Below the pieces are notes generated by a model. The model did not search any database. It was given only the letters and a program-made list of their open reading frames with translations, and was not told the DNA's origin. DNA of 64,000 bases from Streptacidiphilus jiangxiensis (GTDB lineage Bacteria; Actinomycetota; Actinomycetes; Streptomycetales; Streptomycetaceae), in assembly GCF_900109465.1 (NCBI RefSeq), contig NZ_FOAZ01000008.1, positions 248,001 to 312,000 of the forward strand, given 5' to 3'. This document shows, in pieces, positions 43,910 through 49,298 of this stretch. Both the position numbers and the translations under genes were made by a program. The stretch's first letter is position 1. Each line of letters starts with the position of its first letter.

Positions 43910-44251
43910 TCAGCCGATCAGGTGCGAGGCCGCGCCGTCGCCCGTGGACTGGGTGGCCTGGCCGACGTTGCAGACCTGGTGGAGCTGCTGGTTGCCGACC
44001 GGGACATCCACCTGGACCGGAACCAGCAGGCCGACCTGCACGTGGTGGATCTCGGGCAGGCAGATGTTCGGGTTGTCCAGGAAGTGGAAGTTGGGGCTGT
44101 CGTTGCCCCACGTCCCGGTGACGTTGGTGCCGCCGGCGCCCTGGGTCGACACGGCGGAGCCGTCCGCGTCGCCGATGGCGGAGGCGGGCGTCGCCGTGGC
44201 GGCGATCGCGGCGGCCGCGACGCCGGCGTAGGCGAGAGCCTTCTTCAGCAT
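43910..44251 (-). CDS. Rodlin-like secreted surface protein 1
   Basis: Rodlins organise chaplin fibrils into the rodlet layer of aerial hyphae and spores. The 113-residue product starts MLKKALAYAGVAAAAIA and has a signal peptide ending in ASA followed by IGDADG, like RdlA/RdlB (AIGDD). The mature part has conserved WGNDSPNFHFLDNPNICLPE, a second Cys in QVCNVGQ, and ends GDGAASHLIG, matching the rodlin AHLL region. Assignment is by motif alignment from memory. It is one of three tandem paralogs. Confidence 0.75.
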   Translation of the reverse strand: MLKKALAYAGVAAAAIAATATPASAIGDADGSAVSTQGAGGTNVTGTWGNDSPNFHFLDNPNICLPEIHHVQVGLLVPVQVDVPVGNQQLHQVCNVGQATQSTGDGAASHLIG

Positions 44252-44319: not shown

Positions 44320-44658
44320 TCAGCCGATCAGGTGGCTCAGCGGAGCGTCACCGAAGGTCTGCGTGGTCTGGCCGACGTTGCAGATCTGGTGGCCCTGCTG
44401 GTTGAGGACCGGGACGTCGACCTGGACCGGCACGACGCCGACCTGGACGTGGTGGACCTCGGGGAGGCAGACGTTCGGGTTGTCCGCGGTGTGGAAGTTC
44501 GGGCTGCCGTTGCCCCAGGTGCCGGTGACGTCGGTGCCGCCCGCGCCCTGGGTCGAGTAGGCCGCGCCGTCGCCGTCGCCGATGGCGAAGGAGGTGCCGG
44601 TGGACATGGCGAGCGCGGTGGCGGCGAGGCCGGCGGCGGCCAGGGACTTCTTGATCAC
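44320..44658 (-). CDS. Rodlin-like secreted surface protein 2
   Basis: The 112-residue paralog starts at GTG 44658 with AGGAG upstream (MIKKSLAAAGLAATALAM). The signal peptide ends near SFA before IGDGDG. The mature segment reads TADNPNVCLPEVHHVQVG, then VPVQVDVPVLNQQGHQICNV, ending PLSHLIG. It is the most diverged of the three in the loop before the C-terminus (TQTFGDAPLS). It lies 68 bases upstream of rodlin 1, with no hairpin between. Confidence 0.74.
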   Translation of the reverse strand: MIKKSLAAAGLAATALAMSTGTSFAIGDGDGAAYSTQGAGGTDVTGTWGNGSPNFHTADNPNVCLPEVHHVQVGVVPVQVDVPVLNQQGHQICNVGQTTQTFGDAPLSHLIG

Positions 44659-44722: not shown

Positions 44723-45061
44723 TCAGCCGATCAGGTGCGAGGCCACGCCGTCACCCGTGGACTGGGTGGCCTGGCCGACGTTGCAGGTCTGGTGCAGCTG
44801 CTGGTTGCCGATCGGCACGTCCGCCTGGACCGGCACGAGGCCGACCTGGACGTGGTGGATCTCGGGCAGGCAGATGTTCGGGTTGTCCAGGAAGTGGAAG
44901 TTCGGGCTGTCGTCACCCCAGGTGCCGGTGACGTTGGTGCCGCCCGGGCCTTCCACGGAGCTGGCCATGCCGTCCGCGTTGCCGATGGCCATCGCGGGGG
45001 TGACCGTCGCCGCGAAAGCGGCCACTGCGACTCCGACACCGGCAAAGGACTTCTTGAGCAT
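44723..45061 (-). CDS. Rodlin-like secreted surface protein 3
   Basis: The 112-residue paralog starts at ATG 45061 (MLKKSFAGVGVAVAAFA), with the signal peptide ending near AMA before IGNADG. It shares FHFLDNPNICLPEIHHVQVG and TGDGVASHLIG with rodlin 1 and is probably a recent duplicate. It is the first gene of the minus-strand trio. A possible BldN-type promoter lies 50-80 bases upstream (45112-45140). Confidence 0.75.
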   Translation of the reverse strand: MLKKSFAGVGVAVAAFAATVTPAMAIGNADGMASSVEGPGGTNVTGTWGDDSPNFHFLDNPNICLPEIHHVQVGLVPVQADVPIGNQQLHQTCNVGQATQSTGDGVASHLIG

Positions 45062-46632: not shown

Positions 46633-46881
46633 TCAGCAGGGCACGTTCTCGCACTTGTTGCCGAACGCCGGGTTGAGGGCGCCGATCACGTTGACGGAGT
46701 TGCCACAGAGGTTGACCGGGATGTGCACCGGGACCTGGATCAGGTTGCCGGAGATGAAGCCGGGCGAGTTGGCCGCGGTGCCGTTCGCGGTGGAGTCCGC
46801 GGAGGCGGCGCCCGCGGCGCCCAGCAGCAGACCGGCGGAGGCGGCTGCGGAGACCGCGGCGATGGTCTTGACCTTGGACAC
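46633..46881 (-). CDS. Short chaplin 1
   Basis: Chaplins are secreted amyloid-forming surfactants that coat aerial hyphae. The 82-residue product from GTG 46881 (AGGAG upstream) has a signal peptide ending SADS. One chaplin domain follows: ANSPGFISGNLIQVPVHIPV, then NLCGNSVNVIGALNPAFGNKC. The conserved Cys pair is present, and an extra C-terminal Cys (ENVPC) is unusual. It lacks a sortase signal, so it belongs to the short ChpD-H class. Confidence 0.92.
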   Translation of the reverse strand: MSKVKTIAAVSAAASAGLLLGAAGAASADSTANGTAANSPGFISGNLIQVPVHIPVNLCGNSVNVIGALNPAFGNKCENVPC

Positions 46882-46949: not shown

Positions 46950-47189
46950 TCACTTGTTGACGCAGTGGTTGCCGAACGCCGGGTTCAGGGCGCCGATCAC
47001 GTTGACGGAGAGGCCGCAGGCGTTGACCGGGACGTGGACCGGGACCTGGATCTCGTTGCCGCTGATCGCGCCGGGGGAGTTGGCGGCGGTGCCGTTCGCG
47101 GACGAGTCGGCGGCGGCGATGCCCGCGCCGGCGACGGAGACGGCAGCGGCGGCGGCGCCGAGGGCGGCGGCCTTGAGGACCTTGCTCAT
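46950..47189 (-). CDS. Short chaplin 2
   Basis: The 79-residue product from ATG 47189 has a signal peptide (MSKVLKAAALGAAAAAVSVA) ending near AAADS. A single chaplin domain follows with both Cys (NACGLSVNVIGALNPAFGNHC) and terminal VNK. The motif SGNEIQVPVHVPVN is typical. A hairpin at 47231-47259 lies upstream, closing the previous gene, so this gene probably has its own promoter in the short gap. Confidence 0.92.
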   Translation of the reverse strand: MSKVLKAAALGAAAAAVSVAGAGIAAADSSANGTAANSPGAISGNEIQVPVHVPVNACGLSVNVIGALNPAFGNHCVNK

Positions 47190-47278: not shown

Positions 47279-47521
47279 TCAGCCCTCGTTGACGCAGTGG
47301 TTGCCGAACGCGGGGTTCAGCAGGGCGATCACGTTGACGGTGTTGCCGCAGACGTTGACCGGGACGTGGACCGGAACCTGGATCAGGTTGCCGGACAGGA
47401 AGCCCGGGGAGTTGGCGGCGGTGCCCTGCGCGGTGGAGCTGGCGGCGGCGACGCCGCCACCGGCGGCGAGCAGACCGGCGGCGGCCACGGTGACCAGGAG
47501 GCCACGCTTGGTGTTCAGCAT
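47279..47521 (-). CDS. Short chaplin 3
   Basis: The 80-residue product has a signal peptide (MLNTKRGLLVTVAAAGLLAA) and a chaplin domain with both Cys (NVCGNTVNVIALLNPAFGNHC), ending VNEG. It resembles ChpH-type short chaplins, which are secreted and assemble through beta-sheet stacking. It is divergent from the Cys-less chaplin, with 336 bases between start codons. Confidence 0.92.
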   Translation of the reverse strand: MLNTKRGLLVTVAAAGLLAAGGGVAAASSTAQGTAANSPGFLSGNLIQVPVHVPVNVCGNTVNVIALLNPAFGNHCVNEG

Positions 47522-47857: not shown

Positions 47858-48103
47858 ATGACGAACGTCCTGAAGGGCGCCCTGGTCGCGTCCGCCGCTG
47901 TCGGTGCTGTCGTCGCCGCCGGTACCGGTGCCGCCTTCGCCAGCTCCCACGCCTGCGGCGACGCCTCCAACTCCCCGGGTGCGGTCAGCGGCAACGAGGC
48001 GCAGGTCCCGGTCCACGTCCCGGTCAACGTGGTGGGCGACTCCGTGAACGTGATCGGCCTGCTGAACCCGGCCTTCGGCAACCACGGTGCCAACGTCGGC
48101 TGA
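47858..48103 (+). CDS. ChpE-like short chaplin lacking the conserved Cys pair
   Basis: The 81-residue product has a signal peptide (MTNVLKGALVASAAVGAVVA, cleavage near AFASS). Its chaplin domain has Val and Gly in place of the two Cys (NVVGDSVNVIGLLNPAFGNHG), as in S. coelicolor ChpE. A single Cys occurs before the domain (SHACGDASNSPG). ChpE is essential with ChpH for the minimal chaplin set. It is the only plus-strand chaplin here. A terminator follows at 48121-48155. Confidence 0.9.
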   Translation: MTNVLKGALVASAAVGAVVAAGTGAAFASSHACGDASNSPGAVSGNEAQVPVHVPVNVVGDSVNVIGLLNPAFGNHGANVG

Positions 48104-48120
48104 TTCGGCCGCGCACACGG

Positions 48121-48155
48121 ATCGGCCCTGCTCCATGCTCGGGAGCAGGGCCGAT
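48121..48155 (+). terminator. Hairpin after the ChpE-like gene
   Basis: ATCGGCCCTGCTCC at 48121-48134 pairs with GGAGCAGGGCCGAT at 48142-48155 around a 7-base loop, followed by TCGTATTAT. The 14-base perfect stem lies 18 bases after the stop. Confidence 0.85.
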
Positions 48156-48226
48156 TCGTATTATCGGGGGTGACGACGCGTCAGGCCGAGCGCGCGTCGC
48201 GCCCTTCGCGGGGGAGGGGGCTGCCG

Positions 48227-48568
48227 TCAATCGCAGTCCTGGTCCTGGTCGGGCGCCGCCATGTCGTCATCGTCGTGGTGCCACCAGTGGTGGTGCCAGG
48301 CCATCGTGTGGCCTCCGTCGCCGACCTCCTCGCCGTTGCTGCACCGGTTGCCGAAGGCCGGGTTCAGTGCGCCGACGACGTTGACGGTGTTGCCGCAGAG
48401 GTTGATGTCGGCGTCCACCGGCACCTGGATCAGGTTGCCCGAGAGGAAGCCCGGCGAGTTGGAGACGGAACCGACGGCGTTCGCGTCGGCACTCGCCATC
48501 CCGCAGGCGGCGAGCACCAGGCCCGCCGCGAGGACCCCGGCGGCTGCCAGCCGAGAGGGCATGCGCAT
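48227..48568 (-). CDS. Atypical chaplin with lipobox and His/Asp-rich tail
   Basis: The 113-residue product starts at ATG 48568 (AAGGAG upstream). Its signal sequence includes LVLAACG, a plausible lipobox with Cys22, and also a normal SADA cleavage site. The chaplin domain is intact (NSPGFLSGNLIQVPV, NLCGNTVNVVGALNPAFGNRC), although VDADINL replaces the usual VHVPVNV. About 40 residues follow, which short chaplins lack, including HHHWWHHDDDD and a terminal DQDQDCD. The tail could bind metal or a charged surface. Function is unknown; the domain assignment is secure. Confidence 0.88.
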   Translation of the reverse strand: MRMPSRLAAAGVLAAGLVLAACGMASADANAVGSVSNSPGFLSGNLIQVPVDADINLCGNTVNVVGALNPAFGNRCSNGEEVGDGGHTMAWHHHWWHHDDDDMAAPDQDQDCD

Positions 48569-48776
48569 GCTTGCTCCTTTTGCTGTGGTCGGGGGCGCCG
48601 GACCTGCTCGCGCTCCGGTCGCCCTACGTGTTCACAGCTTCACTGTGCGCTTATATTCCAGCCGCTCCCGGGCGGCGCGACGCCAAGTCGCCCGTCCGGA
48701 CGCGTACCGGACGCGTAGTGGACGCGGGTTGGACGCGTACCCCCGGGCGCGGGGAGGCGGGGGGCCGGTGGCGATA

Positions 48777-49298
48777 ATGCCTTCCATGCGTCACCGTTCC
48801 CGCGCCGCGATCGCGCTTCCCGTCCTGGCCCTGTCCGCCGCGCTCGCGCTGTCCGGCTGCTCCAGTGGCGGGGTGCAGCGGGAGCTGCCGGGGGCGGCGC
48901 AGTCCTCGTCCTCGACCGGCGCCGACGGCACCGACTTCTCGGTGACCAGCCGCAATGTCGATCTGAAGATCATCAAGGCCGCGGTCCACCTCGGTGCCTC
49001 GGGTGGTGCGCAGCTGGAGATGGGGGTCACCAACGCCGGGCCGGTGACCGAGCACCTCGCGGTCGTCGCGGTGGAGGGCAAGCGGGCCACTCTCCAGGGG
49101 GCGCCCGCGACCAACCCGCTGTCGGTCGCCGGCGTGCTGATCGCCTCGGGTTCGACCGCCTCGTTCGGCGCCGCGAACGGTCCGAGGGTGGTGCTGACGA
49201 ACGGTGCCGCCCTGAAGGTGGGCGGCACCGTCCCGGTGATGCTGCAGTTCGGCGTCGCGGGGATGGTCAGGATCGACGTCCCCGTCCTGGCCGACTGA
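48777..49298 (+). CDS. Predicted lipoprotein, function unknown
   Basis: The 173-residue product from ATG 48777 (or 48786) has a lipoprotein signal ending LALSGCSSGG. The mature domain is beta-rich and begins FSVTSRNVDLKIIKAAVHLG. It resembles actinobacterial lipoproteins distantly related to PCuAC-type copper chaperones, but the Met/His copper ligands are not visible. It is probably an envelope protein. It converges with the chitinase gene, with 9 bases between stops. Confidence 0.72.
   Translation: MPSMRHRSRAAIALPVLALSAALALSGCSSGGVQRELPGAAQSSSSTGADGTDFSVTSRNVDLKIIKAAVHLGASGGAQLEMGVTNAGPVTEHLAVVAVEGKRATLQGAPATNPLSVAGVLIASGSTASFGAANGPRVVLTNGAALKVGGTVPVMLQFGVAGMVRIDVPVLAD

Follow-up and report, generated by a model that had tools for sequence, protein, structure and literature searches.

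A short Streptacidiphilus chaplin with a polar, cysteine-tipped tail, and a sequence-defined variant class of cysteine-tipped chaplins

A short chaplin of Streptacidiphilus jiangxiensis was found to extend into a polar, His/Trp/Asp-rich tail bearing a third Cys at its C-terminal tip, and this Cys is the one fixed residue of the tail across 14 Streptacidiphilus genomes, including that of the window (the whole 64,000-nucleotide stretch of DNA that was analyzed). Streptacidiphilus comprises soil bacteria related to Streptomyces, and chaplins are small water-repellent coat proteins. In a wider comparison within the family Streptomycetaceae, chaplins with a conserved Cys at the C-terminal tip constitute, as judged by sequence, a variant class of chaplins, which is the broader finding of this analysis. 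The reading favored here, to which slightly less than an even chance is given, is that the protein is a secreted short chaplin whose polar tail offers its terminal Cys for an intermolecular disulfide with other chaplins of the cluster, thereby cross-linking or tethering the layer.

Table 1. Features of the tailed chaplin gene and of the neighboring chaplin genes in the window
Feature	Position	Strand	Basis or remark
Tailed chaplin gene, 113 aa	48227..48568	-	ORF translation; stop at 48227-48229
Chaplin domain, residues 23-78, core Cys C58 and C76	48335..48502	-	PF03777 match
Ribosome-binding-like AAGGAG	48574..48579	-	5 nt upstream of ATG
Lipobox-like L19-A20-A21-C22	48503..48514	-	Read from translation
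Type I signal-peptidase-like A25-S26-A27 before D28	48488..48496	-	Kept with or without the lipobox Cys
Polar His/Trp/Asp tail, residues 79-113, 35 aa	48230..48334	-	No confident predicted structure
Third, C-terminal Cys C112 in the D-C-[DNC] tail end	48233..48235	-	14/14 orthologs
Divergent ChpE-like chaplin, one unpaired Cys (HAC-GD), lacking both core Cys	47858..48103	+	Cluster reading
Ordinary short chaplin, two core Cys	47279..47521	-	Cluster reading
Ordinary short chaplin, two core Cys	46950..47189	-	Cluster reading
Short chaplin ending ENVPC, third Cys as last residue, GTG start	46633..46881	-	Cluster reading

Gene and domain architecture

The N-terminal part of the translated protein begins MRMPSRLAAAGVLAAGLVLAACGMASADANAV, and its signal region contains GLVLAACGMASADA. 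As read from the sequence, a putative signal peptide consisting of an Arg-containing n-region, a hydrophobic stretch and an ASA-D site precedes a complete chaplin domain, which scores 83.3 bits against PF03777 (curated cut-off 21); by this match and by its signal-then-domain layout, the protein is a chaplin. PF03777 is the sole Pfam match of all 14 members of protein alignment A1, in which C58 and C76 are invariant. The original prediction of a complete chaplin domain followed by an unusual His/Trp/Asp tail was confirmed by ORF translation, the PF03777 match and the orthologs. AlphaFold2, applied to alignment A1, returned a mean pLDDT of 43.9, with a signal helix only and pLDDT below 50 for residues 25-113, and no relative was found among solved structures.

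The ribosome-binding-like AAGGAG recurs in 10 of the 12 aligned upstream regions of tailed-chaplin orthologs. No sigma-BldN-like site was conspicuous upstream of three cluster genes: when their upstream regions were scored with a sigma-BldN consensus, shuffled sequences scored as good or better in 200/200 cases for the tailed gene, in 177/200 for the short chaplin gene at 47279-47521 and in 52/200 for the ChpE-like gene. No sigma-70-like promoter was detected at 48100-48850, and the sole terminator-like site in this interval sits upstream of the tailed gene.

The tail and its terminal cysteine

The tail, GEEVGDGGHTMAWHHHWWHHDDDDMAAPDQDQDCD, contains WHHHWWHHDDDD and DQDQDCD. Its densest 20-residue stretch holds 14 His, Trp and Asp residues, and the next best site reaches 10 among 103,051 overlapping 20-residue segments covering six frames of the whole window. 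Since this density is unmatched in the window and the orthologs keep the tail, its composition is not a product of chance.

A tailed ortholog is present in the same cluster in 14/14 Streptacidiphilus genomes, among them S. neutrinimicus NBRC 100921 (G008), S. melanogenes NBRC 103184 (G006) and S. anmyonensis NBRC 103185 (G010), and in 12 of them as an intact frame. The original prediction had called for a search for similar tails among homologs and would have been contradicted by their absence from all orthologs, whereas every Streptacidiphilus ortholog proved to be tailed. The tailed chaplin of G007 (L144) has a locally shifted stretch and that of G013 (L145) is split over two frames, reflecting either decay or sequencing error.

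The tail ends in DCD in eight genomes, in DCN in two and in DCC in four, and C112, which had not been singled out originally, belongs to this end motif. In the 12 intact orthologs the tail spans 30-67 aa, with 4-9 His, 1-4 Trp, 6-16 acidic (Asp and Glu) and 0-4 basic (Lys and Arg) residues. What is kept is this composition together with the D-C-[DNC] end, while the positions of His, Asp and Trp are not conserved. The nonsynonymous rate (dN) of the tail exceeds that of the core in 8/9 ortholog pairs, with many indels, the alignments of such tails being uncertain, and there is no support for purifying selection acting on the whole tail sequence. Because composition and the end motif alone are kept, the pattern favors a flexible spacer whose end is functional and argues against a metal site of fixed geometry; a conserved terminal Cys combined with unfixed His, Asp and Trp positions points to a thiol function rather than to metal.

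Cysteine-tipped chaplins beyond Streptacidiphilus

A total of 297 Streptomycetaceae genomes were searched with a pattern composed of a chaplin end, no more than about 11 tail residues and Cys-stop. It matched 57 genomes, but the matches in G004 and G097 all lie out of frame or past a stop. In-frame matches were obtained in 13/14 Streptacidiphilus genomes (the 14th, G004, has a Cys-ended gene read from the cluster) and in 42/70 genomes of genus g14, to which Kitasatospora sp. DSM 101779 belongs (L081 and G077 encode the same protein). None was found in frame in 153 genomes of g9, the largest genus and presumably Streptomyces (one match out of frame), or in 60 genomes of the other 14 genera; the last two tallies were counted by hand and that of g14 by script. 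With 14 further g14 genomes whose longer tails were read directly (G026, plus five, plus eight), Cys-tipped chaplins occur in at least 56/70 genomes of this genus; in the remaining 14, one chaplin was read, that of G222, which ends DDDD without Cys. Typical g14 ends are HPKPADDC, HHHDDDC and PPVDEDC, as well as ..DDC, ..DEDC and ..HHDDDC.

For a survey of C-termini, 340 distinct chaplin ORFs were collected by similarity to the query, which makes the collection no census, and frames running off a locus were omitted. A loose chaplin motif was used both here and in reading the clusters, so as to include DADIN-type cores; 46/340 ORFs exceeded 190 aa and were dropped from the survey, and a sortase expression removed none. 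Among the collected chaplins within this length limit, Cys lies within the last three residues in 0/14 from g9 and in 3/69 from records named Streptomyces, the exceptions being S. fildesensis (L045), NRRL B-24484 (L082, whose protein is identical to that of G080 in g14) and L086, where the end is irregular. A tail Cys is present in 5/10 distinct g6 chaplins collected, the others having been read without Cys; in loci of five g6 genomes the tail ends are DDCDH, KDDCK or HDHCK, and the g6 genome G084 encodes the same chaplin as S. fildesensis (L045, L202). One g15 chaplin ends DCTC.

Many of the collected family chaplins have a polar tail, and those of the Streptomyces type often end in GYGG, GYGH or basic residues. 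The initial view that no chaplin class has a tail or a lipobox of this kind was too strong, considering that polar tails occur in many chaplins of the family and that Cys-tipped ones are usual in g14. In another genus, a chaplin at L013:1111-1746 (-) has a sorting-like end after a very long His/Arg tract.

The chaplin cluster and the odd cysteines of its members

Within the cluster (Table 1), the Cys-ended short chaplin forms a second paralog that ends in Cys-stop in 14/14 Streptacidiphilus genomes (VPC, APC in four, KPC, PGC in three, DNC in three, QDC and PDC). All 29 other non-ChpE-like short chaplins recognized in the 14 clusters contain exactly two Cys. The lone Cys of the ChpE-like chaplin in the window lies near the mature N-terminus and is placed differently in three other genomes. 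Across the genus, a single Cys is found in the ChpE-like chaplin of 10 genomes (HAC-GD in seven; just before SPG in three), two Cys in that of three genomes and none in that of one; the lone Cys occupies two different places in two clades.

Single-Cys ChpE-like chaplins coincide with single-Cys tails in 10/10 genomes, and those with zero or two Cys coincide with DCC tails in 4/4. A tree was built from three other chaplins of the cluster, with Cys masked in two of them and the three main clades starred, and on it the DCC group corresponds to one change (support 99/98). Because DCC is a single change, the 10-versus-4 contrast is only suggestive, a hint at a partner that counts as one event and not as ten.

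Away from the cluster, the S. jiangxiensis genome encodes a further His-rich tailed chaplin that ends DDCG and has no lipobox Cys; Cys-tipped, His-rich tailed chaplins of this kind are located at L031:1214-1570 (+) and L034:1262-1606 (+), in this genome and in G008. Near the cluster lie three tandem divergent rodlin relatives (43910-44251, 44320-44658 and 44723-45061, all on the minus strand), which match NCBIfam rodlin_AB at 38-43 bits (E 1.3e-9 to 3.4e-11), short of its curated threshold of 75, and have no Pfam match.

The lipobox and possible lipidation

The lipobox consensus is [LVI][ASTVI][GAS]C following an n- and an h-region, and LAAC22 of the tailed chaplin fits it. In the orthologs, this position is Cys in five genomes (G000, G002, G006, G008 and G010), Ala in seven and Thr in two. 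On the tree described above, the five Cys genomes need one change (support 74/79), a pattern consistent with one late gain. The membrane anchoring put forward in the original prediction stands in part: the lipobox is real and lipidation is possible in five species, but anchoring cannot be general, because the lipobox Cys occurs in only 5/14 orthologs and the ASA-D type I site in 14/14. The lipobox is thus confined to five of the 14 genomes, where it may have a function.

For S. jiangxiensis itself, a chaplin lipidated at C22 and seated on the membrane, with its tail reaching the wall to nucleate or hold fibrils, is considered somewhat unlikely. It would accord with LAAC, LSAC or LGAC, which in the five species follows a short n-region with Arg and a long hydrophobic stretch, and with a loose lipobox expression that matches just seven of the 340 collected chaplin ORFs, five of them these orthologs. 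However, nine of the 14 orthologs lack the Cys, a single change on the tree accounts for its distribution, the type I site is retained throughout, and the signal sequences of the five hardly differ, which makes retention of the Cys among them of little informative value.

Metal binding, polar brush or thiol

Two further readings concern the tail. In the first, which is decidedly unlikely, the His/Asp cluster and the terminal Cys would bind Zn, Cu or Ni for storage, sensing or the bridging of chaplins. The counts of His, acidic and basic residues in the 12 intact orthologs would suit such a role, and His and Asp are also found in many of the short g14 tails; yet, except for the acidic residue that precedes the Cys, no His or Asp position is fixed, His is missing altogether from several Cys-tipped tails (VELPPPPADDC; ENAPC), and chaplin metal binding was not found as a topic among the papers listed by one literature search. 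In the second, equally improbable, the tail would be just a polar brush, or a pH-responsive spacer with His residues that become charged in acidic soil; it would leave one face of the layer wet or soluble, and the terminal Cys would be incidental. This would explain why composition is kept and sequence is not, and Streptomyces-type chaplins do have Cys-free polar tails that often end in GYG[GH]. Were the residue incidental, however, a tail that changes this fast should have lost it somewhere, whereas the terminal Cys is present in 14/14 tailed orthologs and in 14/14 copies of the second paralog. Read-through or a frame error of a normal chaplin is ruled out, the tail and its end motif being conserved in the genus, as is sortase anchoring of the tailed chaplin, which has no sortase signal.

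For the favored thiol cross-link, we infer the following arrangement. As in other chaplins, the core would become part of the hydrophobic amyloid sheath that covers hyphae and spores, and the flexible polar tail would stay in the wet, wall-facing space, presenting its C-terminal Cys. Since the core Cys are thought to pair with each other, the terminal Cys would be left free for an intermolecular disulfide, for which the unpaired Cys of the ChpE-like neighbor, the last residue of the Cys-ended paralog or a second copy of the protein itself are candidate partners. The putative disulfide would cross-link or tether the coat layer, and in the subclade of five species the added lipobox may also hold the tailed chaplin in the membrane. 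In the accessible text of PMC5618241, chaplins are described as secreted proteins with two core Cys that are suggested to form a pair, and the layer into which they assemble is amphipathic with its hydrophilic side toward the wall.

The cross-link is supported by the retention of the terminal Cys in every ortholog although tail length and sequence change fast, and by the recurrence of Cys-tipped ends in the second cluster paralog and in g14; the ChpE-like contrast, counted as one event, and the precedent of the BslA CxC motif also speak for it. Counting against it, all g9 (Streptomyces-type) chaplins read here have no terminal Cys, and the DCC tails of four genomes could self-pair or bind metal. 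The available part of PMC5618249 reports that ChpF fibrils form in vitro without a disulfide, which also counts against the cross-link, and that a Cys change in ChpH disturbed fibril assembly in vivo; this effect, set against the disulfide-free fibrils, still allows the coat in vivo to have a covalent component. By analogy with BslA, a film protein of Bacillus biofilms, the tail Cys suggests that Streptacidiphilus coat proteins may be chemically linked to one another. A more far-reaching proposal, which is unlikely as it stands, would have the chaplin layer of Streptacidiphilus and Kitasatospora held by a dedicated thiol system, in which specific disulfides of polar-tailed and Cys-ended chaplins, in Streptacidiphilus partly with the unpaired Cys of the ChpE-like protein, yield a covalently tethered coat under redox control, in addition to sortase anchoring, the tailed member also being a lipoprotein in one subclade.

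Significance

According to the excerpted text of a review (PMC5618241), whether chaplins contribute differently to the layer is still largely unknown. A third Cys conserved in defined paralogs would offer a testable division of labor among the many chaplins, and the tail Cys might serve as a redox handle on water repellence, in parallel to BslA. One branch of the family usually has this Cys, which was not found by pattern in the Streptomyces-type genus. Cys-tipped chaplins were not described in the titles and abstract openings of the chaplin literature searched, a scope that most subscription papers fall outside.

Comparison with known systems

Like the tailed chaplin, the short chaplins ChpD-H of Streptomyces coelicolor have a signal peptide, one PF03777 domain and, except for ChpE, two core Cys; to our knowledge, none of them has a tail Cys. 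They measure about 55 aa and are essentially the chaplin domain, as given in the consulted section of PMC5618241, whereas the tailed chaplin adds a 35-aa, Cys-tipped tail. The long chaplins ChpA-C likewise combine chaplin sequence with a C-terminal extension, which in their case tethers the layer, but according to the same partial source (PMC5618241) they possess two chaplin domains and end in a sortase signal. The tailed chaplin has one PF03777 stretch, and its tail ends in DQDQDCD. The polar-tailed Streptomyces chaplins, many ending in GYG[GH], share a single domain followed by a polar His/Asp/Gly tail and differ in having no terminal Cys.

BslA of Bacillus subtilis, which belongs to another protein family than the chaplins, is likewise a secreted, hydrophobic film protein with a Cys-bearing C-terminal extension, and the tailed chaplin would resemble it in function if the disulfide reading is right. 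It has two C-terminal Cys (CxC) and reported disulfide oligomers (PMC7615278, in part); this motif makes the dimers and tetramers needed for biofilm hydrophobicity (PMC7615278 and PMC5618241, as far as their accessible text goes) and is not needed for film strength (accessible text of PMC7615278). The feature that the tailed chaplins share with BslA, a conserved C-terminal Cys in a film protein, is found in all 14 orthologs.
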